The translations under genes and the position numbers were made by a program. A stretch of DNA of 64,000 nucleotides from Bolinopsis microptera (Eukaryota; Ctenophora; Tentaculata; Lobata; Bolinopsidae). The notes beneath the pieces are model-generated. The model was not told the origin of the DNA. It saw only the letters and a list, made by a program, of their open reading frames with translations, and ran no database searches. Shown here piece after piece: positions 5,881-55,696 of the stretch (positions are counted from its first letter, which is position 1; each line of letters begins with the position of its first letter). The stretch covers positions 6,248,084 through 6,312,083 of the forward strand of contig NC_087072.1 in the NCBI RefSeq assembly GCF_026151205.1, in the 5' to 3' direction.

Positions 5881-8800
5881 TCATAATATGCACCTGTACT
5901 GACAGGCGAACATGACCCAGCAAGCCACTACATTCTCAGGATATGGGTAGATTCGTATCTTGATCGCCAGCTCCAGTTCGTCGCCGTGACTGGTTATCAA
6001 GTCTGAACAAACTTCCGACCTGCGAGGTTTCGGCAGTCAAATCGATGTTTTGAATACATTGAAAATTAATTGGGCAATAAAACGCGTCGTGCGCGGCTCA
6101 ATCCATGATATTAAACTGTGCGCCGTACAAAACAGTCATAATCTGTAACCGACATTTTCGAATGAGAATAGAGTTCAAATGTAGCAAATTCGACACGATT
6201 TGTAAAAACCAAGGTGCTTGCTATACAGATATTACATACCTCATGCATTCCCTGAATATCTGCCTAATATTGAGGTGGTTAAACTGAGCTGGATATCCCT
6301 TGAAAGTGAAGCCTGTGGGAACAGCGTATCTCACTGCATGTTGGAATTCTTCATTACTGACTGTGACACCTGCAAAATGGTGAATATTTGGAATACATTT
6401 GATGGTAAGTAAAGAATGTATAATCGATGATTAGAAAAGTCATCAATAATTACCTGCAGCACGCTCAATCTCATAGGCGCTGATAGCAGGCAGAAGTAAA
6501 TGGCACAAATTATCATTCCAATGTGTGCTCAGATCATGCTGTTCACGCTCGTCTCTTATCAATCTGAGATCATGTATAATCTGAGATTATTTATAAGAGT
6601 TAATTAGACACCCCGTCTATTTAGGGGTTAATCTAGATTTAATTAAGATTAGTAGTACATTATTATTCAGAAGCAGAAACTGTACTTCTAAGAGCTTGAC
6701 GCAGTGTAGGTAATATTATATTACAGAGTATCTAATGCGGAAAAGCCGGAAGTGGTTACAAAATAAAGATAGCACAGAGTCAAGGGTGCTCACGTGACAT
6801 GAATATAAGAAGCTAACCCCTCTTACCTCCTAAGTTGATGTTCTAGATTAGCAGCAGTGTGGTAAGGATCAATTAGGTTGGGATTTAATACGATCTGCAT
6901 GTTACTGGTATCCTTGCTGGCCCTCATGGATTGGATGGCATCCTCACTCACTGCTTTCCAGAGTACTGGCTCTCCTAACTGAAACCTAGGGACAAGGTTC
7001 TGGATAAATAATTGGAAATTTGCTGTCTGTCCGGTCTCTCCTGTTCATATTACAGTCAACTTCGACCAAAAATTGCAAAGTAACATTTTGACCTAATACA
7101 ATTTACTCAGTAATACAAAACCACTGATAAAGTGGTAATATTGACGGAAGTTTAATCTTGTTAGGATATAATCTAGTTTTCATTAGTTTCCCATCAGTGG
7201 CATCCATTGTATCAGACTTTGTAATTTCGGGTTCAATATACAAGTTCAAAACAAAATAATTACTTGATTTTAGAGATTGAGTTGGAAGGCTGAGTGTTAG
7301 CGTAGAATGACTTGTCATTGAACACACAGTCAATAGTCTTGTAGGGAAGTGTATCTCCGGTAACGTATCTGAAACATTACAAATTCTACTACACATACTT
7401 CAGGATGTAATGTTGATAGAAAGTACGTTTCGCAACGAAATGGTAACTTGATAAAGAAGTCCAATTAGAAAAATGGCCCCACTGAATAACAGGATGGCCT
7501 CACTAAAAACAGGTTGAGATATTTGATACCAAATAATTACAAATGTCTAAAACCTGTACCTCTGACCGGTGATAGCGTCCCAGAATGTAGGAACCCCAGT
7601 CTCGCCCAGCGTCATGACCCAGACATGTGAGGTACCTTTAATTCTGCTGCCTATACACACGTAACTATCAAGTGAGAAGCCTAGGAGGAGGGAGCAGAGG
7701 AGGAGACAGTGAGATTCCACGTCCTGTAGGGAGGCGACCAGTGGTTAGTATTGAGGCGACCAGTGGTTAGTAGGGAGGCGACCAGTGGTTAGTATTGAGG
7801 CGACCAGTGGTTAGTATTGAGGCGACCAGTGGTTAGTATTGAGGCGACCAGTGGTTAGTATTGAGGCGACCAGTGGTTAGTAGGGAGGCGACCAGTGGTT
7901 AGTTGGGAGGCGACCAGTGGTTAGTATTGAGGCGACCAGTGGTTAGTATTGAGGCGGGATGTTATTTCCATTTCAGTGACATTATTTCCATCCTACTTCT
8001 GGATGTTCGGTTTGTGATCTATCATGATATAATTATGTAATTTGTGGTATGTACGACGAATTTTGATGAACCCACTAATACCTACAGTTTCAATATTTTT
8101 TCCCCATATTTAGATAGTCTATACTCTTCTCAGATCATACTTCTGTAAAACAGTAGCGTGCTTTACCGAATTATCTCAATATAATAAACGAAAAGCTTCT
8201 ATTGTCGGAAAACAATGTTTTCCGATGACGTTGAGAGGCAGGCAATTACCATGGAGCAAATCAAAATTCGTGAGTGAGTCATGGCCATATAATTTCAATC
8301 CTTTGTCATTATTGTAGAAGAGAAATCACGAACATGATTCGTCGATTAATTCTTCCATGTCGATTTTACTTTCGTTAAGACACGGTTTTAGGACAAAAAA
8401 TAAACTTTTTGAGATAAAATTAATTATTGTAAAATCAGGCATATTATAGAGTAAAAACGTAAGTTCAAAGAATTAAAAGCAAAAAAACTTTAAAGTGTAA
8501 CTGTTGTATTTTCAATAACTGCAAAGTTATCGTACGTTATGATTGATGTACATTGTACACACTGCAGATATAAATGTTTATCTACAAAGCAATCGCCCAT
8601 CTTAACGCTGTCACATCCTGGACACGAAAAATTCGAAAAAGTGGGAGTACAGATTCCAAAGTGTGTGAAAATTACGAATGAAAGAAACAACAAGGCAGGC
8701 CAAAATAGTGACAATTTGAAGAAGGGATATTTGATAATGTCTCTAAATGTCTCCTCAATAATACGTACATATGACAATATGATATGTGCCAGGTTAGTGC

Positions 8801-11800
8801 AGCACGTGTGTGGCACGTGTGTGTACCACGTGTACCACTCTCTCTTTCCAACAACACATTATTTTAAATAACTCATCTCCTGGGTTTTCTCATGGTACGA
8901 GTCTCTCCACCCTCTGTATCCTCATTATTCCCGTCAATCATTATCATCGTACAACTATTGTCACTCTCGCTAAACTCAATTCCCTTTCGTCGACACAGAA
9001 ACTGAGCGAAATGGTTATCGTTTGTTCTCCCAGTGTCAATTTTCTTGAGTTGTCTTTTCTTGCATGGTTTGGTGATGAGGTTGAAGACAATGTAAGGAAT
9101 GCAGAATGGAAACAAGAAAGGCATGCCATGACCCTCAACATTAGTCACAGCATTGTACTCCATGATGGACTCAAACTGAGCGAATCTCCAGTCAGCAAAC
9201 TTCCCCTTGTTGACCTTGGAATACGCATCACACATGATTGCAATGAGCAAGTTCATGCACATGATACAGAGGAGGATTTCGTAAAGCACCAGGAGGAAGC
9301 CCATGAAGAGTGTCATGGCTCCGTCCAGAGAGTTGTAGAGGCTCGTCTTATGGCCATAAGCCATACCGTCAAACAAGGCCCATATCAGGGATAGTACTGT
9401 TTTGCTGACTGAGTCAAATGAATGAAAATCATTTGCGTCATCATCTCCATCAATACTATAAACTTGCCTGTAACAGGAAGCCAGGCTTAGCATGGGTACT
9501 ATGAACCCTACTAAAAAGAAACCAAACAGAAAGATGACCCTTGATATCTCTGAAAACATGTGTCTAATGGCTCGGATCATGGGGCCTAGTCCCGGGACAT
9601 GTATAGTGCAGACTTCAAGTAGATGAACCATAGCCATTACGGCAGCAGTACTGTAAAAGTAGATAGTGAATACCAACCTGCGTGCCACCATGGTGTTGTC
9701 ATGGATACTATGATAAACACCATACACTCTGGAGTCAATGTAGACATGTAGTTTGCAAATCATCCCAGTTATCAGCACTAACAACAAAACAACATCATTC
9801 AGATTAGAGAAACTGTTGAGGTATTTCTTAAACTTGACTATCATATTTGATCCCTTTTTGTGGAATACTTGGAACCACTCTGTCAGGACCCTGGCAAGGA
9901 TGCAAACCCACAAGCACCACTCGAAGAAGGGTATAGTCGGGGCAGGGAGCCTCACTAAGATAACGCCATCATCTCCAACTTTAAAATGAGGATTGTTGTC
10001 TGCTGTGATCATACCCACCTGAAGCTGTTGGATCATAAGATTTACTGGCCTCGGATCAGGAGCAGTAGTCAAGGTTACAGCCAGCAAGAGAGCGACCAGG
10101 ACACTGTAGTTCAACAAATCCGCTAGATAGTAGGTGAAGGGAGAGAAGAAGTCAATGTCTACCCTCCATTTTTGGCGCTTCACCCTGTTGGAGTATCGTG
10201 ATAGGAGTGCCAAAGGCAGGTAGAAGAAGTTCCAGAAAAAGAAGTTGATCATTCTTTTTAGAGCGTAAATTATTTTGCCTTTGCCTGTGCTTTCTTCTGT
10301 TGATGCTTTTCCCCAGAAATTCTGCCAAACGACCTTCTGGTACATTTTAGCAGCAACAAGTTGTTTGTTTCCTGACTTCAGCTTATCGAGAAACATAGTT
10401 TCATCGTCCAGTCTCATGAGCTTAGTTACCTCGAGCGGTGTAATGCATCCTCTTATCAGAGTCATAGCAAAGTCTCTGGGAATTTGTTCCAGTTCCTCGA
10501 TCATCCTATCATAGAGAGAGTTTCTGCCATTTTCTTTCTTCGCATACTTCTGAAGATGATGCTGCAGTTTCAGGGCAGTTCTCATGGGGTCACGACGCTC
10601 TTTCAGGGCTTTCACAGAGATTAATTTAGCGAGTACAAGTATAGGCGAGTAGATCTCATGCCTGTCTTCTCCGTAAGGGGCGCTATTGACGATTATCTCG
10701 AGCAAGCCTACAAGGTACCCAATGTAGTGATCATCTTCAGCGAAGGTTTGTGTGTGTAGAGTGCATTTACTCATCCAACCTATTGGATCTAGTAAAAATT
10801 CTAATCTCGTTCCTTCCTCGTCGTGGAAGGTCATTGACTTGCACTGGGAACTCGTTAGAAGTGCCTTAAGAGTAAAATGATCAGCTTCAGCTTTTTCGGC
10901 AAATTTAATTACCGCATTACTGAAAAGATGGTCGTCTTCCTCGAACTCCGCTAATTTGTGAGATTTTAGCTGAATACTGGATTTCTTTTTTAATATGTGA
11001 TTGTTAGAAATCATCCCTCACAGATCGTTCACGTGACTTTCTGTCTAAGTCAAGGATTGAAGGATAGGATTATATCGCACTGACGTTCACATCTACCTGA
11101 TATGTAGCGAGAAATTATATGATGTCGAACAAAATGCTGTACTTTTCCAATACTATCATAATTTATATTCGAGTACCTATTTAAGCTATATATTATGTTC
11201 GATGCAGTCTCTATCGAATGCCGAAAGGCTCTCCATCTAACATACCTACAGTAAACAAATTGAACTCCATTTAACATTAAACAAAAGGAATGCAGAAGAA
11301 TACTTCGGGAAAAGGCCACTCAACTATGAAAAATCTAGATACAATCAAAAGCGGTATTATATATATAATATATATAATATATCTTTTGTCTTCAAGAATT
11401 ATGATCTAGTAAGAGTTGAGACTAATAATTATATATGATAAAGCCCAGAAGTAACTACCCACACGCAACCCTTTAATAACTCACGTAATTCGCATCAGAA
11501 TTGTTAAAAATTTCAGAGAATATAGATATGGGTTAAACTTAGATTTCCTGAAAATTTCGTAAAATTTCATCTATTACAGAGGGCAGCAGTGTCACGCCAC
11601 TCCCTCTTTTTCGCTATTGTCACCATAAAATGAGAACTTTTTGAGTTTTAAACTCCAAAATTTTGAGTTAGAAACAATCAAAAGCAGTATATAGAAATAA
11701 TTTCCATCTTTTGTCTTCAAGAATTATGGTCTAGTTTAAGAGTCGAGACTAATAATTATATATGATAAAGCTCGAGAGTTCAAAGACCACCCGCCAACGT

Positions 11801-14800
11801 TGGCCTAGTTCAGACAAAAAGGGTGTTAGCTTAAGCAAATTGTCAGCTTACGGCTCTATTAATCTAACAATAGCAGTTAATTGAGTGAGATACTTTTTTC
11901 AAACTACCTGTTGTCTTCTGATCAAACTCGATTAAGGATAATGGAGCTGGAGTAGAATAGAAACACAGCAACACATAATTGAAACCTAATAAGCTAATAT
12001 ATAATAATAATGATCCACTTATGCTGTGCAGGATAAAAGAAACCTAAATTGATTATGTTAACACTTCTACGGCCTAAACTATTGATTCTATAACTTGTAG
12101 ACCTACCAATTTGAACTCGGGTGGTCATCCAGACAAAAAAAGAGAAACCTTCGAATTATATTATATGGCTATTGTAGAGATACAGAGGTGAAACAGTCCT
12201 CGTGGTCAGGCAGGAGCCTTCTATTTTTACGCGAGACATAATATGTGTAATTATGTTGATACATGTAGTGCAGGGACTGTCGCAGGGTCGATGTCATATG
12301 CATGAACATCCCATTGAAAACTTTTCATTGTTCGAAATCTGACTGAGAGGCCCGTAAAGCTAATTTAACAGTAATATGATCTCAGCACTATATTATAGCT
12401 CCAGAACCTTGCGCCAATTAAAATAAAATTAGCCTTACTATACTGGAGTAAGACGCAACGATGAATGAATTTTAAACCCCAATCCTTATCGTACTGAAAG
12501 GTGCAGTGTATTCTTAAATTGAGACTCAAGTTTTTCAGCTTAAATATCCGACACTACAATATTATAATAAACGTATGAAGCAGATCCATATATACTCAAG
12601 CGCTTGCTTGCACGAGATATTCATAAAAACCTGTTTTGTCAGGGACCAGCAGAATGTTCTTTCAAAAATCAAAATTTTTTGTAATTGACTGAGATTTTCG
12701 TTTAAGCTCTTGGATAGAACTTTTTAGCTTAAGAATTGAGCGCAAACATCACTTGCTATACATCGAAAGAGCAATCATAAGACTAAATGCGACAAGTCGA
12801 CAAGATGACAAACACAATCGACAGATCACAAGTCGAAGATCAAAGATCAAATGACAACGACATGTCTGTACAGTCGACAAGTATGTGCCAAGATTAAAAT
12901 GTGCTTTCGCAGGAAGATCGGGGTTTCTCTCAATAAGTTATTGGTATCAATCGGATAGCATCCCGGTTCAGTGGCTTGATAGGGTCTTAAATAAGAAAAT
13001 TCAGGCGAACAGTGAAATTTGTTGAATTTGGTCATCTCAAAATATCTTGCCTCATTGCACTTTGCATTGTCGTGCTAACGCTCAGTATTTCTATATAATT
13101 TCTATCCCCTTACTTTTTTAGATCATGGATTTCTCCAATTGTCTAGTACATCGGGCTGATGATAATTATATAAGATTTGCAATGTGGCTTTACAGTTTGA
13201 AGTTAGTCAAGGTTCATTTAGACAGATTGAGGTTATTTTTGTTGTGAACATATATATTAGTTATAATTTTTGGTTATTAGGAAGATACAACACGTTCTAC
13301 AAACAGATTGTAAGTTAGCTATATTATTCTTACATATTACCACACTTTATTATCACAAACGCTAGTAATTGCGAGTATTTAATATTTGCTCTAACTCGCA
13401 AAATAGTCGGAATAATCTATTTTGTGTTACATTCCGATTAAACAGTAATTCAAACAACAAGTAAACTGGCTCCAAAGTTTCTCGTTCTCGATACGGCCCG
13501 AGTTCGAAATTTTAGCAAAATACGAATTGATTAGACGTTACAGTAGGTAATACCATGGACCAGATTGATAATCTATCTTACTATATAAAGCGAGACGGAT
13601 ATATATTAATATATTTATCTGTGCCATTTTACTGACACCACGGCATCAACTTTAACGCGAATTTCTGCAAAAACCGTCAAAGATATACAACTGAAACTTT
13701 TTTGACTGGGTCAAATGCTTTAATGGCCTCCAAATCAGCATGAAAAAATAAAAAATTGGCCAAAAAATAGGAGTTTTAGAGCCCAAAATTTGGTACCCAA
13801 GTGGTGTCAAAAACGCGAATTAAATAGGTAATAATTGTTTTAGTCTCTGAGTCTTGACACCATTTTAGGGTTAGACGGGTTCCTGCTAGTTCAGATAAAG
13901 CGAAGAAGGTGCATCTGAAATAAAGAGAACTTTGCTGATCAAGAGAAAAGAATATTAAGAGATATCAGCAGCTGACAGAAGAGATTGCAAGCTCCAGACA
14001 GTAGCAGTTCGAGTTCGAGTTCGAGTTCGAGTTCGAGTTCGAGTTCGAGTTCGAGTTCGAGTTCGAGTTCGAGGCATTTACAACTGCAGCCTCCAAACCT
14101 TTATGAACCACCTGAACGTAAACACTAAAGAGAAAAAGGCCTGCATGAAGATCGCGGAATTTAGCATGAGGGCATCATACACCATCTATCTGTCCAGAAA
14201 CACCATTATATGGACAGATGATTGGGAGTTAGTCCAGAGGCTAGTAATTGCATAGTAGGAGCGTATAATGTTTGTAGAATGTAATTATTTTTACAAACTA
14301 CCGTTCAAAACTTATAGATCAAGTGATAACCTACCCACAATTATATTACAACGTCGTGGGGTCAGTCGATATTGTTGCTAAAAATCAGGAGCAAGCGTCT
14401 TGAGACAGGATACCATGAATCTGTATAAGTTTTAAGTAGTTTCATTCTACGTTTAATATTATTATTGGGTCGTTTACGTTAAAGTTATATTTGGCCATTT
14501 TATAGCCTCCCCTCAAAAAGCCCACAATTACTCAATATGTAAAAGACCCAAAAGAAGAATATCCTACAATCTCTGTTTTATTAGTGAACTTGAATATCTT
14601 GCAACTTGTTAAGACCACATTAAAATGCTTTGATATAGACTATACATCATGCCGGATGTACCTTCAAGAACTTATAGCAATCATGTATCTAAAAGAGAAT
14701 GATGTAGAGGGGGATGATTAGTAGTTAGAAATCGGATCGATGTAGCAGAAAAAAGCAAACCCTAGCAAAGAGTGCAAGTGTTTTTATAACCAAATTCAGA

Positions 14801-17800
14801 CAATTGTCTCGCCCATCGCCTGACATTTTAGGGTTTTTAACCCCTATCACCCATGAACCGGGTGCTTCCGGATTTATACCGAAACCCATATTGGAAGAAA
14901 ACACCCGATCTACAACATCAAAGCACATTTTAATAACTTGAGCACAAAACTGGTCAAAAAAAGACCAAAGTTGTTGCCCAATTTGGTATTTTTCCTCACG
15001 CGTGTAGTCAAAATGACCGATTTTTGTCAATATCTTAACAAATAAGCATTAAAGGGCTTATATTGCTCTATAAGTTGTATATAAATGTGATGTTTGCGCT
15101 CATTTTAAGCTAAAATTCAAGTCTCTACGATCTTCCTAGTTCAAGTTACAAAAATTCAGTCCCATTTTTGGTTCGCTGAGCCAAAAAACAGTTTTTTGTC
15201 AATATCTATAAAACAAAGCACTGGAGACCTTATGTTGCTTCATAAGTTGTATATAAATATGGCTATTGCGGTAATTTTAAGCTAAAATTGAAGTCTCTAT
15301 GACCTTCAGGAGCCGAAATACGAAAATCTCGTATACGCGACTGAGGGTAATTTAGAAAATTTGCCCTGTAGGGTTGTCTCTAGCGAAAGAAATTGTGCAC
15401 CCACACGATTTTGGTTAAGAATGACCTAACAAACAACCCTGTGTTGTCAGAAATAGTACACATCGAAGTGCACACTCAACTATTCCCTGCTACTAGAGTA
15501 AGAAGGGATTGATTGCTACTTGAGTACTGTATAAGTAGGAAGAAACTTGAAAGTTATCATCGTTAACATGTAATTGCAATTAACCTCGACCAAAATCCCG
15601 GGATATACAAATTAGTAATTGCAGCAGTATCTGCTACATAATCGACATACCGTGACTAATAATTCATACCGGCTACTAATTAAGACCACTAAGTTTTTAC
15701 AGCTAAATGAGTCACGTTACACGTACAATATTATAAATATAACGCTTGCATGAGTCATGATCCACTTTATAAATCAGAGCAGCATGCTGCCACGACGAAA
15801 TTTCAGTAAAAACCGCTAAATTTCGGTCAAGGGGACGGCAGAAATGTTTCTTTTCAAAACTATTCCAAAATCTCTTTTTATATTCTGATGATTTTCCGTT
15901 CATCAAAGCTTTCTTTGGGAATAGAACTTTGAGTTATTGATTAGAGGACTTCGCCGCTTCGACGCGCCGCGCAAACTAGCATTCTTGCTTCGCATCGACA
16001 AGATCGACAAGATCGACAAGATCGACAAGATCGACAAGATCGACAAGATCGACAAGATCGACAAGATCGACAAGATCGACAAGATCGACAAGATCGACAA
16101 GATCGACAAGATCGACAAGATCGACAAGATCGACAAGATCGACAAGATCGACAAGATCGACAAGATCGACAAGATCGACAAGATCGACAAGATCGACAAG
16201 ATCGTTGCTCTGCTTCGCAGAGCAACGATCTGGAAGGGTTGACATCGTCAATCAAAGTTATTGAGTACCTCAATCGTGTCTTGTGCCATCCTCATTCCTC
16301 AGTGTCCTTGTAAGATGGTCATTGAAGCATGAAGAAAAATTCAGTCGAAACAGTGAAATTTGGGTTTAAATTTGTCACTGCTCAAGAATATCTTGTGCCC
16401 ATTGCACTAATTGTCGTGAGACTACCTCAGGTAATTTGCTAGTAGTAGAACTGTTGGCTAGAGTAGGCCCCTTACTTTTATAGTTCTATGGAGCTCTCTG
16501 GCCAATTGCTCAGTCAGTGACTGATGCATATTATATTAAATTTGCAGAATGGTGCATTTTCAGTGATTTTGAATTTTAGTTGTAGTGAACGGTGGATTTT
16601 GACGTATTGAACGCACGTTCCACTCATTTTGTAGTGGAACGAAAATAAATTTATTTTCATGAATTTTTGTTTTTGATAATCACTGACGTTCACTACATCT
16701 AGATTGTAGAGTACGCTATATTAATATCTACCACATACCACACTTTATATTATCACAAACGACTAGTAACTGCGAGTACCGGTTTAAAGATTTGGCTGCT
16801 GAATCGAAAATAGTCGGATATCAATCTATTTTCCTGTTAGCTATACCAGAACTGAGTGGAAAACAGGAGAATTAAAACTATACTGAAAGTGAAAGGTTCT
16901 GGAATAATTCGAAAGTTTCTCTTTGTTTGTCTGGATGACCGCCCGAGTTCAAATTGGATGGAAAATACGAAGTTGATTAGTAACGGTACAGTAGCGCGCA
17001 ATTGCATTTTGATCAGTTTTATTGTCATATTATGTCGCCAGTGTCTCCGTTTTCCAAACAAATGGAAGTTGTTTCAATTTAAATTACTGTTACTGTACCC
17101 AAACCCAAATGATACCGAGAATGAAGTCGGTCGCTTGATTTTCCCATTCATTCACAATTATTTTATTTCAAAATTCAAATAAACTTTACATCAATGTATT
17201 ACAGTTATATTTAGAAAATACCACAATATCTCGTGTGAGGCAAAAAAATATGAAAAATGAGAGCTAGAAAAAAATTCCTGAGACTCAACACTACCAGACT
17301 GCAGCTTGAGTGAGAAACATTATGTAAACATCGCATCATAGTAAAATGTATTTCGGCTGAACCAAAACACGGTGGTAAAACCATTATTACATTGGTGCCG
17401 ATTGATTGATAGGGATAGGGAATAGGGATAGATATTGATGATAGGAGGCAGTACGCGGTATAAACGGTGCGTTACACTGTATTAACGGTGCGTTACACTG
17501 TTGTTACAGTCACGAAAATAACTGAGCTCGTTACAATTTGCAGGTCGTGAATGTCTACCTTTTATAACTGAGACTGTTTATGTTATTTAACATCTCCAAA
17601 CCAAATTACGACCTTTCTATGGTCAAACTTAATATGCAATCTGTCATGTAGTCAAGGAATGAAAGTCAAGTGAACAAATCTGTTAGATCTAGAAACACTA
17701 TTATATACTATATAAACGGTGCATTCAATGAAATGATAAATAAATAAATAGATTCTAACATTTATTACACGCTTCGACATCAAAATATACCCAACAAAGA

Positions 17801-20800
17801 TGTACAATGTACATTTAAGTCATTCAAGCGAGTCATTCAAGCAATGAATCCAAATTGCTTTAAGTTTTATCTGTGGGGAAAAGAAAATGCAGCTGAAGAG
17901 GGTTAAATTTGATAGTATTACTCATAAGACTCACACAAACTGTCACTATCATTACAACGGTCTTTCCGGAGAAGAGTAAAATAAGCCCGGCAAGTTTAGG
18001 CTGTGGGGATCAATGTCGGATTTAAAATTGGTCTCATTTAAGCACATTATGTCGAGACAATGTCGAGACATGATTCAGACAGGCACTACTAATAACTATT
18101 ATATCAAATTAACTCTTAGGATAAAAGAAAAGGATAGAAGAAAAAGTGAATGCCTTCACTGGTCCTTGGCAGTTGGCAGTGTGTATATAAATGCGCCCGT
18201 TCTTGTGCTGATATTGTATGGTGATTGGTGTCAGCGAGTTCTACTGTCAGTTGTCCAAAGGAAGAGATGGGAGTATTATCGCATGGGCATTGATAAGTCT
18301 AGTGCGTTTGACACGATCAAACGCACTACGATTCTTGAACTCCTGAAACTGTGTGGATGTAGTTGTACTGAGGATGAGCTGAGGATTGTCCGGTTGTTGT
18401 TGTCCAACACAAGGCTACGGGTGAAGGTCAATGGAGTTCTTTCAGCTGAGTTTTTAAGTCTCCTTGGAGCTTTCCAAGGTGACTATTTATCCGGCTGTCT
18501 GTTCACCCTTGTCTTAGCTGGTGTTTTGAATAAACTTAGGTGGACTATAACAATCAGTTTAGATAGGCCGATTCTCCCGATTACTATTGCTGGCCTTCCA
18601 CTTGACACTGAATATGCTGATGATGTCGACTTCAATGATGAAGAGGAAAACAACTTGAGAGCTATATTGCCCCAGACAACAGCAGCAGTACTCGAGAAAT
18701 GGAAACTCTTTGTCAATGAAGACAAAACGGACTTCACTCATGTTTATTAAGTTAGTACGGGTGAAGTTGACAGTGATGGAAAATTATTGTCGGGGAATGA
18801 AGCATGGAGGAAAAGTATCACTCTAGGGTCCGTCTTGTGTAGCAAAGCTTATATTCAGCGTCGCATAAACCTGCTGGGCCATCCCCAAAATATTCCTTGA
18901 AAAACTAGATGTTGTTCACCGCAAACATCTTCGCACTATTTTGAATATAAAGTACCCATGAGTCATCTCCAACAAAAACTTGTATAAACGCTGCAATGCT
19001 GAACCATTGTCAGAAAAAGTGGCTCGTAATCGGTGGAGAATGTTAGGACATGTTTTGCGGGGTCCTGTTGATGGACCAGCGTTTTCTTCCCTCATTTTTG
19101 CCATCAATACACTGGAGTTACCAGGGACTAGGGAGGCAGGGAAAAGAGGAAGAGCCCAAAGCAATCTATTCTCGCTGATTGTGCATGATTTATGTAAAAG
19201 AAATCTTTATATGAATAATATTTTTGATCCGTATTATCTCTGTAATTTAGCTTATGACAAGAGATATTGGCAGAAATTACAATGAAGTTTTTGATATTTA
19301 GCTATTTGTTTTAGGGAAAGATTAGACTTGGGTGTTGTTTTTTAACTATCCCTTGTTTAGAACTTTGATTTAATATAATATAATAATAACTATCAAATTA
19401 GAAGACTTTGCGTACTCACTACAGAGAATGTACTCACTACAGAGAATGTACACAATCATATATTGATTCTGATTTACTAATTTGAAATAAAAATGTCGGT
19501 GCGGAGGTGGTGATACAAGTAATATAAAATATGGTTTAATAAGATTTAACTTGTCTCTAATTAGCGCGATGTAGTTTAGAGATGTAGTTTGTTTTATTAT
19601 GAAATTATAAAGTTATAAATGGTCATAATCTGGACTAAACTACTCCCACGTCCAAATTGTCTCAAATGCCATAAAATAATTTTATTCTCCAAAATCCATG
19701 CCGATCTGCCGCCTTTCTGGCTGTGGGAAGATTTGTGAAATGAAACTCACCCCATTATTAGCCACCAGGAATCCGTGTAGACTGGTCCACTGTTCGCTGG
19801 TAGAATTACCGCCAGGTGCGTGGCTCTGTGAGCAGGGGATCTGGGAGACAAAGCGAGCTGCGTGCCGCGCAGACTCAATCAGGGGGGTTTGGAGAGGAGC
19901 CAACATCATACACACCAACTGAGTACTTCCTAACTCATCCTGCAAGATGGGATTACTTTTACAGTTTACACCAGTTAAATTAATTATCATGGTTAAGAGG
20001 GGATTTTATGGGAATTTTTGGAAATCAGGACAGTTTCTGAGAGATGAATGGTAAAAACAGCTATAAAGCCTGATCTATGAGAGGAGTGTAATACCAACTG
20101 TTTTTAGCCCTGCTAGATACGCATAAGTTGTAACAACGTGACCCCTTACCTCAGTGAATATCTTGACAAGTCTGTCTGTGTGAGCTGGGCGAAGAGCCAG
20201 GTATTCATTCCACCACTGTTTAGTATACATGAGGAACAGACGCTCTCTTTCTATCTTCCGGTCCTTTTCCATCATCAGCTGACTTTTTAACACTTCACTT
20301 GATATTCTCTTCTGCAGAGCTGGCAGCATTTTAATCCTGGAAAAAGGTAGTTTCAATTTGTACAGATATATCAAGAAATGCTTATAATCTCACACTTATG
20401 TTACTTCGGAGTATTCCAACACATTGTTACACAAGTCAAACGGGAGTGAAACCAGCCAATTGCAGGAAGCCGAAGGAAAAAAACCTCAATATTAAGCCGG
20501 AAATTTCTCGAATATTACGGTAAATACGGCAACTAATGATCCTTAACTTGAACTTTAAAGGCAAAGTACTGATTTAAACCTGACATTAAACATTACATAA
20601 TATCATTAAACATTGCATATTATATGTATATCTGTAACGTTCTGAAGATCTCACCTAAGAGTAAGCAGGCCCACAGAGACCCCACAGTCTGATTTAGTTC
20701 CAGTAACCTCCAGGTTTAGCAGCGTACCTTCTGTCTTATCAAGACACTGTCTCCAGTCAACCTCACAGCTACCTGATTGGTTAGTTTGTGTCACGTGGTG

Positions 20801-23800
20801 TAAATACTGTGTTATAATTGGTCCCAATTGGTTGGTTTGTGTCGCGTGGTGTAAATACTGTGTTCTAATTAGTTGGTTTGTGTTACAGACACTTGCACTG
20901 CCTCCAGTCAACCTCACAGCTACCTGAACCCGGACAGAGCCGTTTACTATTTACATAATATAAGGTCTTACTTAAGCTTAAGTTACAAGTCTTGCTTAAG
21001 CTAAGTTATAAGTTACAACTTAGCTTAAGCAAGTAGGGAATATATCACTGATATCCTGGCGGTTATCTTGCACAGATTTCTGCTAATGCAGTTCTGCTAA
21101 TGCAGTTCCTAACCTGATTGGTTAGTTTGTGTCACGTGGTGTAAATACTGTGTTATAATTGGTCCCAATTGGTTGGTTTGTGTCGCGTGGTGTAAATACT
21201 GTGTTCTAATTGGTTGGTTTGTGTTACAGACACTTGCACTGCCTCCAGTCAACCTCACAGCTACCTACCTGAACCCGGACAGAGCCGTTTACTATTTACA
21301 TAATATAAGGTCTTACTTAAGCTTAAGTTACAAGTCTTGCTTAAGCTAAGTTATAAGTTACAACTTAGCTTAAGCAAGTAGGGAATATATCACTGATATC
21401 CTGGCGGTTATCTTGCACAGATTTCTTCTAATGCAGTTATTGACAGAAATATTAGAATTTAGAATGTTTGACGTAATTTTCTATATATGAGCTATTATTT
21501 ATCACAACAGACTTTTGCTTTTACATTGAATACCAGCAACTTAAGAACGAGCTCATACAGGGGGGGGGGGTGTCACGTCCGTCTATGTCCGCCTATGTCC
21601 TGTCCTTTTTGGATTCTATGAGACAACGGACGTGTTTTTTGGGACATTGGCAGACACGGACGGACATTGGCGGACTCGGACGGACATTGGCGGACTCGTA
21701 CTCTGTTTTATAGATCTGGTACATTGTTGGCTCGGAATATTTGTTCAATATAACACATACGGGGGGTGATGAAGTGATCACTGTGGATTAGTCTACCCAG
21801 CGGTCTCCAGTACTCTGTCTCTATCGGGTCCTTCAACGTTAAGCTGTTAAGCTGATGTTGTCGTTCTATTGTTTATATTATCTCTATAATAGACGAAATA
21901 ACGTACGCTCATTGGTCAGATATTTAATTGATAAACCAATGGACGCGGCGATCTGAACAGCGAGTCTCTTAACTTTAGGGGGGGGGGGGGGGGGGGTGTC
22001 ACGTCCGTCTATGTCCGCCTATGTCCTGTCCTTTTTGGATTCTATTATTTTTCGCAACTTCTATGTATTATAATTTTGTACAAAACAAACGACTTATTTA
22101 TCACACTAAAGCTATTAATAGCTTTAACTTATATCAAATTATATAGGGATCCAGGAAAAGGCCCCAGGAGGAGGAGGAGGAGGAGGACTGGGGAGGAGGA
22201 GGACTGTTGAGGACTGATGAGGAGGACTGAGGACGAGGAAGAGGAGTAGGAGGAGGACTGAGGAGGGGAGGAGGAAGAGGACTGGGGAGGATCAGGAAGA
22301 CCCAGGAGGAGGACCCAGGAGGAGGACCCAGGAGGAGGACCTAGGAGGAGGAGGAGAACTGAGGAGGATGACTGAGGAGGAGAAGGACTCAGGAGGAGGA
22401 CTCAGGAGGACTGAGAAGGAGGAGGACTGAGGAGGATGGCTGAGGAGGATGGCTGAGGAGGATGACTGGTAGGGAGGAGGAGGAGGAAGAGGAGGAAGAG
22501 GACTGAGGAGGAGGAGGGGAAGGACCCAGGAGGAGAAGGAGGACCCAGGAGGAGAAGGAGGACCCAGGAGGAGGACCCAGGAAAAGGCCCCAGGAGGAGG
22601 AGGAGGACTGGGGAGGAGGAGGACTGTTGAGGACTGATGAGGAGGATTGAGGACGAGGAGGAGGAGTAGGAGGAGGACTGAGGAGGGGAGGAGGAAGAGG
22701 ACTGGGGAGGATCAGGAAGACCCAGGAGGAGGACCCAGTAGGAGGAGGAGGAGGAGGACCCAGGAGGAGGAGGAGGACTGAGGAGGACTGAGGAGGAGGA
22801 CTGACGATGACTGAGAAGGAGGAGGACTGAGGAGTACTGAGGAGGATGGCTGAGGAGGATGGCTGAGGAGGATGACTCAGGAGGATGACTCAGGAGGAAG
22901 AGGAGGAGGAGGACTCAGGAGGAGGACTCAGGAGGAAGAGGAGGAGGAGGACTCAGGAGGAGGACTTAGGAGAAATGAGAAGGAGGACTGAGGAGAACTG
23001 AGGCGGAGGAGGAGAAGGACTGAATAGGAGGAGAAGGAGGGGGACTGGGAGAGGACTGAGGAGGAGGAGGACTGATGAGAAGGATGAGGAGGAGGACTGA
23101 GGAGGAGGACTGAGGACCGAGGAGGAAGAGGAGGATGAAGAGGAGGAGGAGGACCCAGGAGGAGGAGGACTGAGGAGGACTGAGGAGGATGGCTGAGGAG
23201 GATGACTGAGAGGGAAGAGGAGGAGGACTGAGGAGGAGGAGGAAGACTGAATAGGAGGAGGAGGGGGACTAGGGGAGGACTGAGGAGGAGGATGGAGGAC
23301 TGAGGAGAAGGATGAGGAGGAGGACTGAGGTGGACTGAGGAGGACTGAGAAGGAGGAGGACTGAGGAGGAGGAGGACTGAATAGGAGGACTGAGGAGGAG
23401 GAGGACTGAATAGGAGGACGAGGGGGACTGGGGGAGGACTGAGGAGGAGGATGGAGGACTGAGGAGAAGGATGAGGAGGAGGACTGAGGACTGAGGAGGA
23501 CTGAGGAGGACTGAGGAGGACTGAGGAGGAAGAGGAGGAGGATGAAGAGGAGGAGGAGGACCCAGGAGGAGGACCCAGGAGAACTAAAGAGGAGGAGGAG
23601 GACTGGGGAGGAGGAGGACTGTTGAGGACTGATGAGGAGGACTGAGGACGAGGAGGAGGAGTGGGAGGACTGAGGAAGATCAGGAAGACCCAGGAGGAGG
23701 AGGTGGAAGAGTAGGATGAAGCATCTAAATGTTATTTCCATTTTTGTCCGTTTTTGTCCATTTTTGTCAGTTTTTGTCCGCTCTATTTTTTGTCCGTTTT

Positions 23801-26800: not shown

Positions 26801-27250
26801 AGTACATTTTACCTGGAGGTATGGGAATTTCAGGTTTTGTTTCTGGCTGTTCCAACACGCTTTCGTTTAGAGAACTGTTTTTAAGCTCTGTTATTACCTT
26901 GTCAATCACGTTCTCCCTGCGCAGTTACATGTGCAGTTACATGTTAACAAGATAGACAATATGAATAAGCATTAAGCATTAGTATCCCATGATATTACTG
27001 ACATTTACATTGTAAAATAAGTAAAACATAATATAAGTATTCACAGTTGACTCTACATACCACTAGAAATGTAACCTAACTCTCTACTGCTAACTACTCG
27101 CTCCTATTACCTGGATATATCCTGGATAACATTGTCCTTGTCCCTCTCCCTCAGTGCTCTATCAATCCTATCAGTGATCCCAGTAGAGGTGAGGTGCTGT
27201 TCTATCAGGAGTTTTAGCGCTCGCACCCTTTCTTCAGGAGCTCCTGACAT
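5881..27250 (-). CDS. CEP76: Centrosomal protein CEP76, complete, 14 exons, 610 aa
   Basis: Fourteen GT-AG exons in transcript order: 27250-27111, 26916-26813, 26694-26578, 26239-26147, 26007-25930, 20772-20655, 20336-20150, 19939-19751, 7723-7560, 7368-7264, 6985-6827, 6563-6454, 6369-6240, 6019-5881. They sum to 1833 nt and every phase matches. Recognisable CEP76 segments are [99 protein letters not shown] and the C-terminal [14 protein letters not shown]. The family has C2-like and transglutaminase-like domains and limits centriole reduplication. Human CEP76 is 659 aa, so this is near full length. The start gives MSGAPEE, like other members. Introns 5 (5.2 kb) and 8 (12 kb) hold satellites, mobile elements and a nested TRP gene. 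Exon 5 is the least conserved; its phases and position support it. Confidence 0.94.
7729..7960 (-). repeat. 22-bp minisatellite carrying branch-point motifs at the end of CEP76 intron 8
   Basis: Ten units of about 22 bp containing CGACCAGTGGTTAGTA on the plus strand. On the CEP76 (minus) strand nine of the ten contain TACTAAC and one AACTAAC. The array stops at the exon 9 acceptor (AG at 7725-7724). The nearest TACTAAC places its branch adenosine at 7745, about 21 nt from the splice site, and the acceptor CCCTACAG itself looks like a changed unit. Confidence 0.9.
7961..8872. other. CEP76 intron 8 sequence downstream of the TRP gene
   Basis: Follows the TRP stop on the minus strand and probably holds its 3' untranslated region. 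A 108-codon minus-strand frame (8490-8816) is not recognisable and is not supported as a gene. Confidence 0.4.
8873..11014 (-). CDS. TRP-family cation channel, single exon, 713 aa, nested in CEP76 intron 8
   Basis: Uninterrupted 713-aa frame with an in-frame TGA two codons before the ATG. Residues 1-255 are a soluble, mostly helical region without clear ankyrin repeats. Hydrophobic segments follow at about 292-316 (S1), 362-384 (S2), 406-426 (S3), 443-467 (S4), 491-514 (S5), a pore stretch at 534-554 ([22 protein letters not shown] region) and a long S6 at 565-597 ending [12 protein letters not shown]. Next comes [17 protein letters not shown] (605-621), in the place and style of a TRP box (compare EWKFAR in TRPC). 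The subfamily is unclear. The product should be a plasma-membrane tetrameric cation channel. It lies wholly within an intron of CEP76, on the same strand, with no introns of its own. It could be a retrocopy, or further 5' exons may have been missed. Confidence 0.8.
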   Translation of the reverse strand: MISNNHILKKKSSIQLKSHKLAEFEEDDHLFSNAVIKFAEKAEADHFTLKALLTSSQCKSMTFHDEEGTRLEFLLDPIGWMSKCTLHTQTFAEDDHYIGYLVGLLEIIVNSAPYGEDRHEIYSPILVLAKLISVKALKERRDPMRTALKLQHHLQKYAKKENGRNSLYDRMIEELEQIPRDFAMTLIRGCITPLEVTKLMRLDDETMFLDKLKSGNKQLVAAKMYQKVVWQNFWGKASTEESTGKGKIIYALKRMINFFFWNFFYLPLALLSRYSNRVKRQKWRVDIDFFSPFTYYLADLLNYSVLVALLLAVTLTTAPDPRPVNLMIQQLQVGMITADNNPHFKVGDDGVILVRLPAPTIPFFEWCLWVCILARVLTEWFQVFHKKGSNMIVKFKKYLNSFSNLNDVVLLLVLITGMICKLHVYIDSRVYGVYHSIHDNTMVARRLVFTIYFYSTAAVMAMVHLLEVCTIHVPGLGPMIRAIRHMFSEISRVIFLFGFFLVGFIVPMLSLASCYRQVYSIDGDDDANDFHSFDSVSKTVLSLIWALFDGMAYGHKTSLYNSLDGAMTLFMGFLLVLYEILLCIMCMNLLIAIMCDAYSKVNKGKFADWRFAQFESIMEYNAVTNVEGHGMPFLFPFCIPYIVFNLITKPCKKRQLKKIDTGRTNDNHFAQFLCRRKGIEFSESDNSCTMIMIDGNNEDTEGGETRTMRKPRR
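11334..11780. repeat. Diverged direct duplication, about 330-bp period
   Basis: The stretch at 11337-11452 (CAATCAAAAGC, then TTTTGTCTTCAAGAATTATG) recurs at about 11668-11775 with substitutions. Intronic to CEP76; no coding potential. Confidence 0.7.
11781..12769. other. CEP76 intron 8, no feature recognised
   Basis: AT-rich single-copy-looking intron sequence; no frame or repeat of note. Confidence 0.4.
12770..13560. repeat. Diverged dispersed repeat, copy 1
   Basis: Matches 16240-16990 in order and orientation with many differences. Shared landmarks are the ATTCAG...ACAGTGAAATTTG segment, CCACACTTTAT-ATTATCACAAACG, and CCCGAGTTC followed by AATACGAA. The foldback arm and the 9-bp array lie between the copies. 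Confidence 0.6.
13891..15501. mobile_element. Single-arm copy of the 2.9-kb foldback element
   Basis: Almost identical, in reverse orientation, to 34512-36070, and its right part is nearly identical to 36412-37367. It starts at TCAGATAAAGCGAAGAAGG and ends at CTGCTACTAGAGTAA. A 101-codon frame at 14725-15030 also occurs in the other arms, but conservation covers the whole arm, so it is not evidence of a gene. It lies in CEP76 intron 8. Confidence 0.8.
14006..14073. repeat. Hexamer microsatellite (GAGTTC)n
   Basis: About eleven copies inside the foldback-arm copy. The matching place in the 35.9-kb copy has only two, so the array expanded after the copies separated. Confidence 0.9.
15943..16256. 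repeat. GC-rich repeat with an expanded 9-bp array (GACAAGATC)n
   Basis: Flanks (GACTTCGCC-CTTCGACGCGC to the left, TGACATCGTCAATCAAAG to the right) match the short copy at 43727-43802, which lacks the array. The array, about 15994-16203, has roughly 23 units. It is followed by a hairpin, GATCGTTGCTCTGC then GCAGAGCAACGATC. Because the unit is a multiple of three, several frames stay open; they are not genes. Confidence 0.85.
16240..16990. repeat. Diverged dispersed repeat, copy 2
   Basis: Partner of 12770-13560 in the same orientation. It starts directly after the 9-bp array element. Confidence 0.6.
16991..18160. other. CEP76 intron 8, no gene recognised
   Basis: AT-rich. A small duplicated stretch, GGTGCGTTACACTGT, occurs twice at 17466-17501. 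Nothing else is supported. Confidence 0.4.
18160..19285 (+). pseudogene. LINE reverse transcriptase, frameshifted remnant
   Basis: The plus-strand frame to 18750 has the RT order [13 protein letters not shown], then [19 protein letters not shown], then the catalytic YADD in TEYADDVDF. After a stop, the protein continues in other frames: [20 protein letters not shown], and from 18980 [14 protein letters not shown], a typical C-terminal motif of RTE-like LINE ORF2s. Several stops and shifts make it inactive. No endonuclease domain is visible upstream, so the copy is 5'-truncated. It lies in CEP76 intron 8, opposite to the gene. Confidence 0.88.
20774..21430. repeat. 341-bp tandem duplication including the CEP76 exon 6 acceptor
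   Basis: The block beginning TGATTGGTTAGTTTGTG recurs with a 341-bp offset (20774 and 21115). Each unit ends with CTCCAGTCAACCTCACAG-CTACC, the complement of the first 25-odd bases of exon 6 with its splice acceptor. That piece therefore exists in the exon, at about 20900-20925 and at about 21241-21270. Each unit also holds a hairpin, CTTGCTTAAGCTAAGTT against its complement. Confidence 0.88.
21560..22060. mobile_element. Two copies of a G-run element with GTCCG repeats
   Basis: A G run followed by GTGTCACGTCCGTCTATGTCC and CCTTTTTGGATTCTAT occurs at 21560-21625 and at 21980-22045. The first copy continues into the complementary CGGACATTGGCGGAC repeats to about 21690. Related sequence, reversed, is at 25090-25262. 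Confidence 0.6.
22155..23715. repeat. Purine-only satellite (AGGAGGACTGAGG type), 1.56 kb
   Basis: Irregular tandem repeats of GGAGGA, GACTGAGGA and GACCCAGGA with larger duplicated blocks (22150-22320 recurs near 22570-22740). Almost all purine on the plus strand. On the CEP76 strand it reads as pyrimidine tract with many CTCAG. The long frames here are by-products of the repeat. Confidence 0.92.
23935..24190. mobile_element. Dispersed repeat, inverted copy of 61555-61760
   Basis: Shares, in reverse, GAGGTGTCGTACGTCACCTC-AAGATCGGGTGACAGGGGGCTG and GATTATGAGCC with the 61.6-kb copy. A second piece of the same element (CAGTACAGCTGTACTT ... GCATGCAAGCTCACCTG) lies at 24959-25014. No coding capacity. 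Confidence 0.65.
24191..25088. other. CEP76 intron 5, no gene recognised
   Basis: AT-rich. Apart from the repeat piece at 24959-25014, nothing is identified. Confidence 0.4.
25090..25262. mobile_element. GTCCG-repeat hairpin element ending in a C run
   Basis: About a dozen ATGTCCG units are followed by TGTCCTTTTTGGATTCTATG, then the complementary CGGACATAGACGGACG and a run of C. It folds on itself and is the reverse of the elements at 21560 and 21980. Confidence 0.65.
25424..25930 (-). repeat. Satellite made of repeated CEP76 exon 5 donor sites
   Basis: Plus-strand units alternate CCAGACTAAACC with TGACTTACC, TGACTAACC or TGACTATCC. On the CEP76 strand the TTACC form is GGTAAGTC, a consensus 5' splice site. 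I count 13, the last being the true exon 5 donor (exon ends 25930, GT at 25929). The array thus starts at the splice site and runs about 0.5 kb into intron 5. Confidence 0.9.
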
Positions 27251-27257
27251 CCTGAGA

Positions 27258-28005
27258 CACACATCACGTGTTATTTTGTACTGAGTCACGCGTTATTTTG
27301 TACTGAATCACGTGTTATTTTGTACTGAATCACGTGTTATTTTGTACTGAGTCACGTGTTATTTTTTACTGAGTCACGCGTTATTTTGTACTGAGTCGCG
27401 TGTTATTTTGTACTGAATCACGTGTTATTTTGTACTGAGTCACGCGTTATTTTGTACTGAATCACGTGTTATTTTGTACTGAGTCACGCGTTATTTTGTA
27501 CTGGGTCACGTGTTATTTTGTACTGGGTCACGCGTTATTTTGTACTGAATCACGTGTTATTTTGTACTGAATCACGTGTTATTTTGTACTGAGTCACGTG
27601 TTATTTTTTACTGAGTCACGCGTTATTTTGTACTGAGTCGCGTGTTATTTTGTACTGAATCACGTGTTATTTTGTACTGAGTCACGCGTTATTTTGTACT
27701 GAATCACGTGTTATTTTGTACTGAGTCACGCGTTATTTTGTACTGGGTCACGTGTTATTTTGTACTGGGTCACGTGTTATTTTGTACTGAGTCACGCGTT
27801 ATTTTGTACTGAGTCACGCGTTATTTTGTACTGGGTCACGTGTTATTTTGTACTGAGTCACGCGTTATTTTGTACTGAGTCACGCGTTATTTTATCCTGA
27901 ATCACGTGTTATTTTGTACTGAGTCTCGCGTTATTTTTTACTGAATCACGTGTTATTTTGTACTGAGTCACGCGTTATTTTGTACTGAGTCACGTGTTAT
28001 TTTTT
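27258..28005. repeat. 22-bp minisatellite directly upstream of the CEP76 start codon
   Basis: About 33 units of 22 bp, built as GAGTCACGCG or GAATCACGTG followed by TTATTTTGTACT. The array begins 8 bp beyond the CEP76 ATG (27250) and covers its proximal 5' flank. Many units carry TGAGTCA (AP-1 type) or CACGTG (E-box); others carry ACGCGT. Larger blocks of units are themselves duplicated (27270-27530 against 27540-27780). Confidence 0.93.
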
Positions 28006-52700: not shown

Positions 52701-55696
52701 ACAATAATTGTTTTATCGAGAACATCATAGTGTCGTATGTTAACGACGAAAAGGTTCTCCTTGGTCTGCCGGAGGCACAGAAAACTTTTCTAGTATATGA
52801 TGTTTTCAAGGGTCACTTGACGGAAAAAGTCAACGAAATTATAGAACTCAACAACATAGTTTATGAGCTAGTTCCCGCCAACAAGACTAACTTGTTTCAC
52901 ATTTCAACCTCTAAATATTACGGTAAATCGTGTTGCCAAGGACATTGTCCGACGTTGTTATAGTTCATATTACTCAGGGGAGGTAATGAAACAAATAAGT
53001 GCTGGGAAAGCTCCACGTGATGTTAAGGTTAACCTTAAGTTGTCTAATATAAAACTAATTCACGCTGAATGGGTGGTAAAAGTTTACACTGAAATGCAGG
53101 ACCGAGGTAGTTTGATAAAAAAAATGTTTCCAAAAAGCGGGTATTACTGATGCTTTAACTTTAAGCATGGAATATTTAATGCCCGAAAACCCATTTGATG
53201 AAGATGATATGTGATATAAGACAATAATCATGTACACATATTTTAACATGTTTACTGATTAAAGACTGCTTTTCTTGCTTACTGTATGAAAAATGGATTT
53301 AAAAATCATTTGCTAAAATTTAAAAAACGTAAAAAAAGATGAAAAAATTCAGATTTTTGATGGTTTTGATTGCCTTCTAGCGTTCATATTAATGTCCGTT
53401 CACACTTATGTCCGTTCAAGTAATGTCCGTCCAAATAAGGTCCGATAAGGTAGTTCATGAGCTAGTCCCCGCCAACATGACAAACTTGTTCCAGCCTCTA
53501 GATATTACGGTAAATCGTGTTGACAATTGACATGGAAATTGTCCGACGTTGTTATATATGTAGTTCATATTACTCAGGGGAGGTAATGAAACAGTGATAT
53601 GAAAGCTCCTTGTGATGTTAAGGTTAACCTCAAATTTCTAGGATAAAACCACTTCACACCGAATGGCTTGTAAAAGTTAACACTGAAAATTTAAATGCAG
53701 GACCGGGGTAGTTTGATAAAAAAAGGTTTCCATAAAGCTAAAAATCACTGATGCTTTAAGCATGGACTATTTCATGCACGAAACCCCATTTAATGAAGAT
53801 GATATGTGATATAAGACATTGATCATGTACACATATTTTAACGTTTTTGCTGCTTAACGACTTTTTTTTCTTACTTACTGTATAAAAATGGATTTAAAAT
53901 CATTTGCTGAAATAAAAAACTTTTAATAAAATGAAAAAAATGAGGATTTTTGATGGTTATGTTTTGAATGCCTTCTAGCGTTCATATTAATGTCCGTTCA
54001 TGATTATGTCTGTTCATTTAATGTCCGTCCAAATAAGGTCCGATAAGGTATAGTAATTCATATCATATATACATGATATAGTTTAAGTTAGACTTACCAT
54101 CTTTTGAGAAAGCCCTGTAACCGTCCAGTACTATATCCTTGGAATCTCTTGATTCAATATCTATGGATACTGTGCCTATTTTCCAATTATTTGTCCACCA
54201 CCGTGCTGTACATTCTGACATCAAAAAGTTGTAAAGAATGACCCCATTGACATCTATTGTTAGCCTTAGTTCGTCGTTAAAGGAAACGGTCCAGATCTTT
54301 TCATTTTCACTCGGTACGGCTGCGGACAATTTTGCTGTGCCTGAAGCCAGGCAGCCGTTTGGATGTATGACCATCGCATCTTTAAATTGAATATAGAACA
54401 TTCCGGTTTCTTGATCATCCTTGTTCAGAAAAAAAACATTTATGTGATCATCTTCGCCTAAAACGCTATCAGTTTTAAATTGTATTCCCGCACTATCTAC
54501 ATTTCCAGTTTGATTATAATAATCACTAGTTCCGTAATTGTTGGTGATTGTGTCTGCAGCTATCCAGTCTTCGTCATCCCAGCCGCTCACCTTGGGATCT
54601 GATGGGGAGTTGTTTTCATAAATAAATTGATAATTGGTCCATTTAAATTTAACTTATACGTAGTGTTTGAATTTATTTTAGTGATACAAAATTTAGTTAA
54701 ATATAACCGTGAAGTTTAATTCTGTCAAAAACTATTAAAGTGGAAAAAAGTCACACTTTATACGGTACACCCTGTAGGGAAAACAAGAAATGGGAAGACG
54801 GGAAGACGGGAAGACAAGAAATGGGAAGACGGTAAGACGGGAAGACGGGAAGACGGGAAGACGGGAAGACGGGAAGACGGGAAGACGGGAAGACGGGAAG
54901 ACGGGAAGACGGGAAGACGGGAAGACGGGAAGACGGGAAGACGGGAAGACGGGAAGACGGGAAGACGGGAAGACGGGAAGACGGGAAGACGGGAAGACGG
55001 GAAGACGGGAAGACGGGAAGACGGGAAGACGGGAAGACGGGAAGACGGGAAGACGGGAAGACGGGAAGACGGGAAGACGGGAAGACGGGAAGACGGGAAG
55101 ACGGGAAGACGGGAAGACGGGAAGACGGAAGACGGGAAGACGGGAAGACGGGAAGACGGGAAGACGGGAAGACGGGAAGACGGGAAGACGGGAAGACGGG
55201 AAGACGGGAAGACGGGAAGACGGGAAGACGGGAAGACGGGAAGACGGGAAGACGGGAAGACGGGAAGACGGGAAGACGGGAAGACGGGAAGACGGGAAGA
55301 CGGGAAGACGGGAAGACGGGAAGACGGGAAGACGGGAAGACGGGAAGACGGGAAGACGGGAAGACGGGAAGACGGGAAAACGGGAAGACGGGAAGACGGG
55401 AAGACGGGAAGACGGGAAGACGGGAAGACGGGAAGACGTGAAGACGGGAAGACGGGAAGACGGGAAGACGGGAAGACGGGAAGACGGGAAGACGGGAAGA
55501 CGAGACCCTGAACAGTGAAATTTTGGAGCACTGCTCCTTAGAACTACATTTTTGAATTTATAAGAAACAGAAATATGAACTTTAATTGATTTTATTTAAG
55601 ATAGGCCCATAAGCTGACTAAATAAATAAATTCGTTACCTGATTTTGCTTGGTCCAAGGATGCAAGAATTAGCATCACTGCCACTAAATGAATCAT
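49748..55696 (-). CDS. Secreted, probably GPI-anchored cysteine-rich surface protein, 5 exons, 354 aa
   Basis: Exons 55696-55639, 54652-54098, 52209-52045, 51657-51493 and 49869-49748 join in frame (1065 nt), all in phase 1 with GT-AG ends. Exon 1 encodes a signal peptide (MIHLVAVMLILASLDQ). Exon 2 gives about 185 residues of beta-rich sequence with two possible N-glycosylation sites, motif DDHINVFFLNKDDQETGMFY, and no family I can name. Exons 3 and 4 are identical 165-bp exons, each encoding a 55-aa module with CQPCPADEWSLAANAASTC-TACPAG, like GCC2/GCC3 or TNFR-type cysteine repeats. The last exon gives an acidic stretch, a small-residue site (SDAGYS) and a terminal hydrophobic tail (STILFGTLLCAINMIY) without cytoplasmic residues, as in GPI signals. 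The exon 2 acceptor (ATAAG) has a weak pyrimidine tract. Function is unknown; surface recognition is a guess. Confidence 0.78.
50085..50870 (+). pseudogene. pogo-like DNA transposon remnant
   Basis: Starts with the GTCCG-rich terminus (ACCTTATTTGGACGGACATT, 50092) and ends with a degraded transposase piece at 50745-50850 encoding VLLGLPEAQK-like and FKGHLAEKVN. It lies in intron 4 of the GPI-anchored protein gene. Confidence 0.65.
50871..51178 (+). pseudogene. Second pogo-like transposon remnant
   Basis: Repeats the order of the previous copy: ACCTTATTTGGACGGACATT at about 50878, four ATGTCCG/AAGTCCG units, then a short transposase piece (about 51060-51165, DVFKGHLAEK). Confidence 0.65.
51178..52388. 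repeat. Tandem duplication (about 550 bp) carrying exons 3/4 of the GPI-protein gene
   Basis: GATTCGAAGTACCCTTTTAG starts units at about 51186, 51726 and 52287. Units one and two each contain an identical 165-bp cysteine-rich exon. Unit three is cut off after about 100 bp by a pogo-like terminus. The small indels (TATTTTC, TACTTTTA) show the intron parts are not quite identical. Confidence 0.9.
52389..53455 (+). pseudogene. pogo/Tigger-like DDE transposase, C-terminal half, inactive
   Basis: Bounded by GTCCG-rich termini at 52394-52465 and 53382-53452. The frame 52730-52963 reads VLLGLPEAQKTFLVYDVFKG, with the second catalytic Asp in DVF, then NIVYELVPANKTNLF. After a shift at about 52905 it continues FQPLNITVNRVAKDIVRR and IHAEWVVKVYTEMQD to a stop at about 53213. 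The expected third acidic residue of the PLD motif is Asn here. The DNA-binding half is missing. It lies in intron 2 of the GPI-anchored protein gene, opposite strand. Confidence 0.85.
53456..54056 (+). pseudogene. Further pogo-like transposase remnant
   Basis: A diverged second copy of the transposase end (FQPLDITVNRV keeps the Asp here) with a stop soon after and a GTCCG-rich terminus at 53978-54048. It directly abuts the previous copy, in the same orientation. Confidence 0.8.
54788..55503. repeat. 8-bp satellite (GGGAAGAC)n
   Basis: About 89 near-perfect copies in intron 1 of the GPI-protein gene. Frames in both directions stay open through it; they are by-products. On the gene's strand it is a pyrimidine-rich GTCTTCCC array ending about 135 nt before the exon 2 acceptor. 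Confidence 0.97.

Follow-up and report, generated by a model that had tools for sequence, protein, structure and literature searches.

The closest precedent in kind for the array analysed here is IFI6, in which, according to a citing source (PMC4526556), splice donors are arrayed in a minisatellite (Turri et al. 1995). Tandem UACUAAC sequences are found in Gomafu, also known as MIAT or RNCR2, where they form a high-affinity SF1 ligand and have been proposed to act as a competitor of introns (PMC3116199). The presence of more than one branch point per acceptor is common, several having been found in 68% of human 3′-proximal introns (PMC9636908), and a branch-point ensemble has been described for the NI exon (PMC2715136). 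In the ctenophore Hormiphora, 13% of the genome is represented by Tandem Repeats Finder (TRF) repeats, and thousands of genes are nested (PMC8527503). A limited search of full texts turned up no published branch-point minisatellite at an acceptor.

The DNA analysed is a 64-kb stretch from the ctenophore Bolinopsis microptera, referred to below as the window. Within it, the final 233 nt of an intron of CEP76 consist of a 22-bp minisatellite whose units contain TACTAAC. The relevant features, all of which lie on the minus strand, are listed below.

19751..19939, minus strand: CEP76 exon 8, with donor GGG/GTGAGT at 19750
7724..19750, minus strand: CEP76 intron between exons 8 and 9, 12,027 nt
8876..11017, minus strand (same as host): TRP-like ion channel ORF of 714 codons in a single exon, nested in the intron (Pfam Ion_trans, E 7.9e-10)
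7724..7992, minus strand: AG-free run of 267 nt, up to the acceptor AG
7731..7956, minus strand: 22-bp minisatellite of about 10 units (TRF and unit table; period 22, 10.3 copies, 95% match)
Within 7788..7948, minus strand: seven copies of TACTAAC (starts 7794, 7816, 7838, 7860, 7882, 7926 and 7948)
7904-7898, minus strand: AACTAAC; the adenosines of the 7788..7948 group lie 65-219 nt from the intron end
7766..7772, minus strand: second TACTAAC, candidate alternative branch point from its sequence, A at 7767 (43 nt)
7744..7750, minus strand: TACTAAC nearest the acceptor, presumed to be the main branch point in vivo, A at 7745 (21 nt)
7724..7741, minus strand: acceptor, a truncated unit ending CCCTACAG, with AG at 7725-7724
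7560..7723, minus strand: CEP76 exon 9, 164 nt; skipping it shifts the frame

Structure of the array and its host intron

The join of CEP76 exon 8 to exon 9 is in frame, and the joined product matches the Pfam CEP76 peptidase-like domain with an E value of 7.8e-21. Additional CEP76 exons were placed across positions 27252 to 5884 in a guide search with human CEP76, which served for exon placement only. Exons 8 and 9 are numbered as in the original prediction, and the numbering does not represent a complete exon count. Two features of the 3′ end of the intron are those expected of a spliceosomal one: its AG adjoins a coding exon that is conserved, and the A of the nearest branch-point motif, at 21 nt, lies within the expected range of about 18-40 nt and is separated from the acceptor by an AG-free interval.

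On the gene strand, the repeat unit is CACTGGTCGCCT followed by CAA or CCC and then by TACTAAC. The array contains nine copies of TACTAAC and one of AACTAAC, the latter in unit 3 as counted from the 5′ side of the intron. The putative branch adenosines are situated 21, 43, 65, 87, 109, 131, 153, 175 (that of AACTAAC), 197 and 219 nt from the last base of the intron. The spacer CACTGGTCGCCTC is identical in every copy of the array, while TACTAAC is mutated in one of ten. The acceptor itself, CACTGGTCGCCTCCCTAC/AG/GACGTG, is a truncated array unit, with 18 nt of identity to the CCC-type unit CACTGGTCGCCTCCCTACTAAC, extending through CCCTAC.

It is apparent from these data that the original prediction was sound in its anatomy: TRF, the unit table and the in-frame Pfam join agree on a 22-bp array that ends at the exon 9 acceptor, the nearest adenosine lies at the distance proposed, the acceptor is indeed a modified unit, and the 12-kb intron does hold a nested gene. 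The count of ten units, nine of them with TACTAAC, stands for the heptamers and is amended for the units, to ten plus the truncated acceptor unit.

Eleven copies of TACTAAC were found on the minus strand of the window and none on the plus strand; nine of them are in the array and two outside it. Heptamers with the base composition of TACTAAC occur a median of 11 times in the same 64 kb. A genome search with the 19-base core of the CEP76 unit revealed no other match at fewer than two mismatches, and no allelic or second-haplotype copy of the array was found in the single assembly searched.

Strength of the exon 9 acceptor

The exon 9 acceptor was compared with 30 introns that had been predicted with a simple score for codons and splice sites and chosen by eye. 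Positions −23 to −4 of the CEP76 acceptor contain T at only four of 20 bases, and this T content of 0.20 is the lowest observed, the comparison introns having a median of 0.45 and a minimum of 0.25. Its pyrimidine content, 65%, equals the comparison median. The 267-nt AG-free run exceeds the longest in the 30 introns (95 nt), a difference that arises because a single AG-free unit has been repeated. The RNA structure of the array was no more stable than that of shuffled sequences (z −0.12).

TACTAAC is absent from the final 60 nt of all 30 comparison introns; a perfect heptamer would therefore have placed the ancestral intron in a minority. A poor U-tract paired with a strong branch point would be consistent with compensation, in what is a single case, and the array may offset the U-poor tract.

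A probable origin by slippage

We consider it probable that the minisatellite arose as slippage copies of the branch-point-to-acceptor segment of CEP76, and that these copies are tolerated and supply spare branch points, their number not necessarily having been selected. The ancestral intron would have ended in TACTAAC-CACTGGTCGCCTCCCTAC-AG. Slippage, probably at the TAC common to TACTAAC and CCCTACAG (CTACAG), would have copied the piece from TAAC to CCCTAC, i.e. the branch point and the spacer, leaving out the AG. Such slippage would account for the 22-bp period, the exact end of the array at the exon, the presence of one motif per unit and the lack of AG. The genome is rich in minisatellites, TRF arrays occupying 13.4% of the window, so that slippage would have been ample. 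An invariant spacer beside one mutated TACTAAC points to recent homogenisation, with no sign of selection on the motif.

With respect to splicing, the TACTAAC at 21 nt would be the expected site for SF1 and U2, perhaps together with that at 43 nt, and the strong motif probably aids the U-poor tract. For any copy chosen as the branch point, the next downstream AG would be the true acceptor, and the outer copies may be viewed as tolerated spares. The original prediction of redundant branch points thus appears to hold in part. The units near the exon are plausible branch points because of their motif, their distance, the AG-free run and the reality of the CEP76 acceptor, and the remaining units could, from their sequence, serve as spares; selection for such redundancy was not supported, as discussed below.

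Repeats at other CEP76 acceptors

Repeated sequences adjoin other acceptors of CEP76. A second 22-bp array (27264-28003, minus strand; 33.6 copies), with a gene-strand unit of approximately TACAAAATAACACGTGACTCAG, reaches the first coding exon. Most of its units hold ATAAC and end in CTCAG, TTCAG or CCCAG, and the acceptor AG is at or near 27253-27252. In sequence, this array would resemble a tandem series of whole acceptors, and its site might be that of a 5′-UTR intron or of a spliced-leader acceptor. At the exon 2 acceptor (26917-26945, minus strand), two copies of ACATGTAACTGC, a 12-bp duplication in which each copy contains TAAC, directly precede the AG. Lastly, a 345-bp tandem repeat (20771-21438, minus strand) ends in the CEP76 exon at 20770; the acceptor and first exon bases, AGCTGTGAGGTTGACTGGAG, are present three times, at 21262, 20921 and 20770, two of these being upstream decoys.

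In a wider sample, tandem repeats were found at three of 31 acceptors, every one of them in CEP76, at one of 31 donors and in 12% of random pieces, and they were thus not enriched at acceptors. In another comparison, with the CEP76 exon 1 acceptor included, they were present at two of 31 acceptors vs 14.7% of random pieces, which is not a significant depletion.

CEP76 has related duplications at several acceptors, and it could be suggested that this animal repeatedly builds and keeps perfect branch-point arrays at U-poor acceptors, and in this evolvable way strengthens 3′ splice sites by copy number. We regard this as quite improbable.

Recurrence of TACTAAC arrays in the genome

Pairs of TACTAAC 3-33 nt apart number 7312 genome-wide, vs 1051 for the reversed pattern, and most of these pairs are ordinary minisatellites. 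Elsewhere in the window, positions 54792-55502 hold approximately 89 copies of GGGAAGAC with a 97% match.

Arrays that adjoin exons, built of other units, recur at acceptors of other genes. The exon joins were confirmed by homology for UQCRX/QCR9 (L041; 1.6e-16), Piwi (L025; 1.8e-15) and a spectrin repeat (L032; 5.2e-5). For an acyl-CoA desaturase (L074; 6.1e-9) and an LDL-receptor class B repeat (L083; 1.1e-9), homology was obtained for the downstream exon only. For L014, L042, L048, L076, L078, L080 and L084, only the codon score and an open frame indicate coding sequence; L042 is Lunapark-like by eye, with no database match. In Piwi, the spectrin-like gene, the Lunapark-like L042 and L014, the arrays or duplications are located in introns of about 115-260 nt, and the exons are real or likely. 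Since similar arrays are present in such short introns, intron length is not the reason for the array, and the original proposal that it serves a long intron was not borne out.

Several other arrays had features of their own. At L083 (G000:C4:1751351), an array of CACTAACACCT precedes the LDL-receptor class B exon, and a second copy of the acceptor and of the beginning of the exon flanks this array; the CACTGAC of this exon may have been the seed for its CTAAC units. At G000:C1:493946-495343, there are more than 30 near-identical 40-bp units of TACTAAC followed by GCGTTTCAG, and no coding sequence was found beyond the AG at this locus. At L019 and L021 (G000:C1:834736 and C1:1806232), two direct copies of approximately 50 bp, which span an acceptor-like site and the bases following it, enclose a dispersed minisatellite with a 20-bp unit, TACTAACTAGTTACCATGGT, an arrangement reminiscent of an insertion accompanied by a long target duplication.

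A strong association of arrays with acceptors (325, vs 61 in a reversed control) was dropped. That contrast was misleading, because the reversed control also lacks arrays. A side-swapped control, in which the hexamer was sought at the opposite end of the array, yielded 16 vs 7 distinct places for TTTCAG and approximately 8 vs 8 for TTGCAG, as counted once a dispersed repeat family had been removed. In two-sided sign tests, the values were about 0.09 for TTTCAG and 0.2 for the two combined. The genome-wide preference of TACTAAC arrays for acceptors is therefore weak and non-significant. AG avoidance was likewise rejected as a general trait of TACTAAC arrays near acceptors, the AG density of their spacers being 0.052 vs 0.048 for all TACTAAC pairs.

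Alternative explanations

The array might instead represent selected redundancy, in which many strong branch points have been kept so that the weak, U-poor acceptor of a long intron is better recognised. The heptamer is perfect here and absent from the comparison introns, none of those introns has a lower T content or a longer AG-free run at its acceptor, SF1 prefers UACUAAC to degenerate sites (PMC3116199), and skipping of exon 9 would shift the reading frame, all of which are consistent with this explanation. We nevertheless consider it unlikely, as the motif is less conserved than the spacer, short introns also hold tandem TACTAAC, copies more than about 60 nt upstream fall outside the usual branch window, and the positional control (16 vs 7 and approximately 8 vs 8) is weak. 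The invariant spacer and the weak genome-wide association with acceptors together leave selection of the array unsupported.

It could also be argued that the minisatellite is a bystander that grew by chance beside the acceptor, with TACTAAC being incidental and a degenerate site being used in splicing. Minisatellites are, after all, abundant (11-13% of the window), and TACTAAC arrays are frequent away from exons, as the genome-wide number of close pairs indicates. At CEP76, however, the array extends into the acceptor itself, its nearest heptamer is well spaced at 21 nt, AG is absent for 267 nt, and TACTAAC would be expected in only about 0.2% of random 22-mers, as estimated from base composition; chance growth is accordingly an improbable account of this locus. 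Sequestration of SF1 by the tandem UACUAAC of the intron RNA, as proposed for Gomafu/MIAT, is highly improbable, even though SF1 binds to such repeats and splicing is slowed by them in vitro (PMC3116199). The array ends an intron of a coding gene, whereas a decoy would belong in a stable RNA; once spliced out, the intron is presumably broken down, and one locus would be swamped by the dispersed TACTAAC minisatellites.

Significance and comparison with known systems

The CEP76 array constitutes a natural dose series for a core signal of splicing, with nine perfect branch-point motifs and one variant before a single AG in an endogenous gene, and other genes carry smaller versions of it. It could be used to test the effect of branch-point number or distance on splicing. 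The origin by slippage favoured here shows how a motif common to branch point and acceptor could yield spare signals without a competing AG; if neutral, the array would still be a clean example of minisatellites shaping intron ends.

The nested genes of Hormiphora (PMC8527503) are similar to the CEP76 locus in that one gene lies within the intron of another, parallel orientation included, but they bear on the contents of introns and not on a branch-point array. Gomafu shares with CEP76 the identical heptamer in tandem, of which the CEP76 array has nine copies. The Gomafu repeats, however, are in an exon of a non-coding RNA, whereas those of CEP76 end an intron of a coding gene and, because they do so rather than form part of a stable RNA, are not placed among decoys of the Gomafu type. 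Introns with multiple branch points resemble that of CEP76 in having more than one candidate branch adenosine per acceptor, and the mode of working would be similar; they have a few clustered, degenerate sites, while CEP76 has homogeneous, perfect heptamers out to 219 nt upstream.

CEP76 resembles IFI6, as the latter is described in the citing source, in that the units of a minisatellite bordering an exon contain a splicing signal, which is hence present in many copies. In IFI6, each unit provides a 5′ splice site, and the mRNA makes use of alternative donors. In the CEP76 array, by comparison, the unit is a presumed branch point and there is a single acceptor AG, so that the mRNA would remain unchanged.
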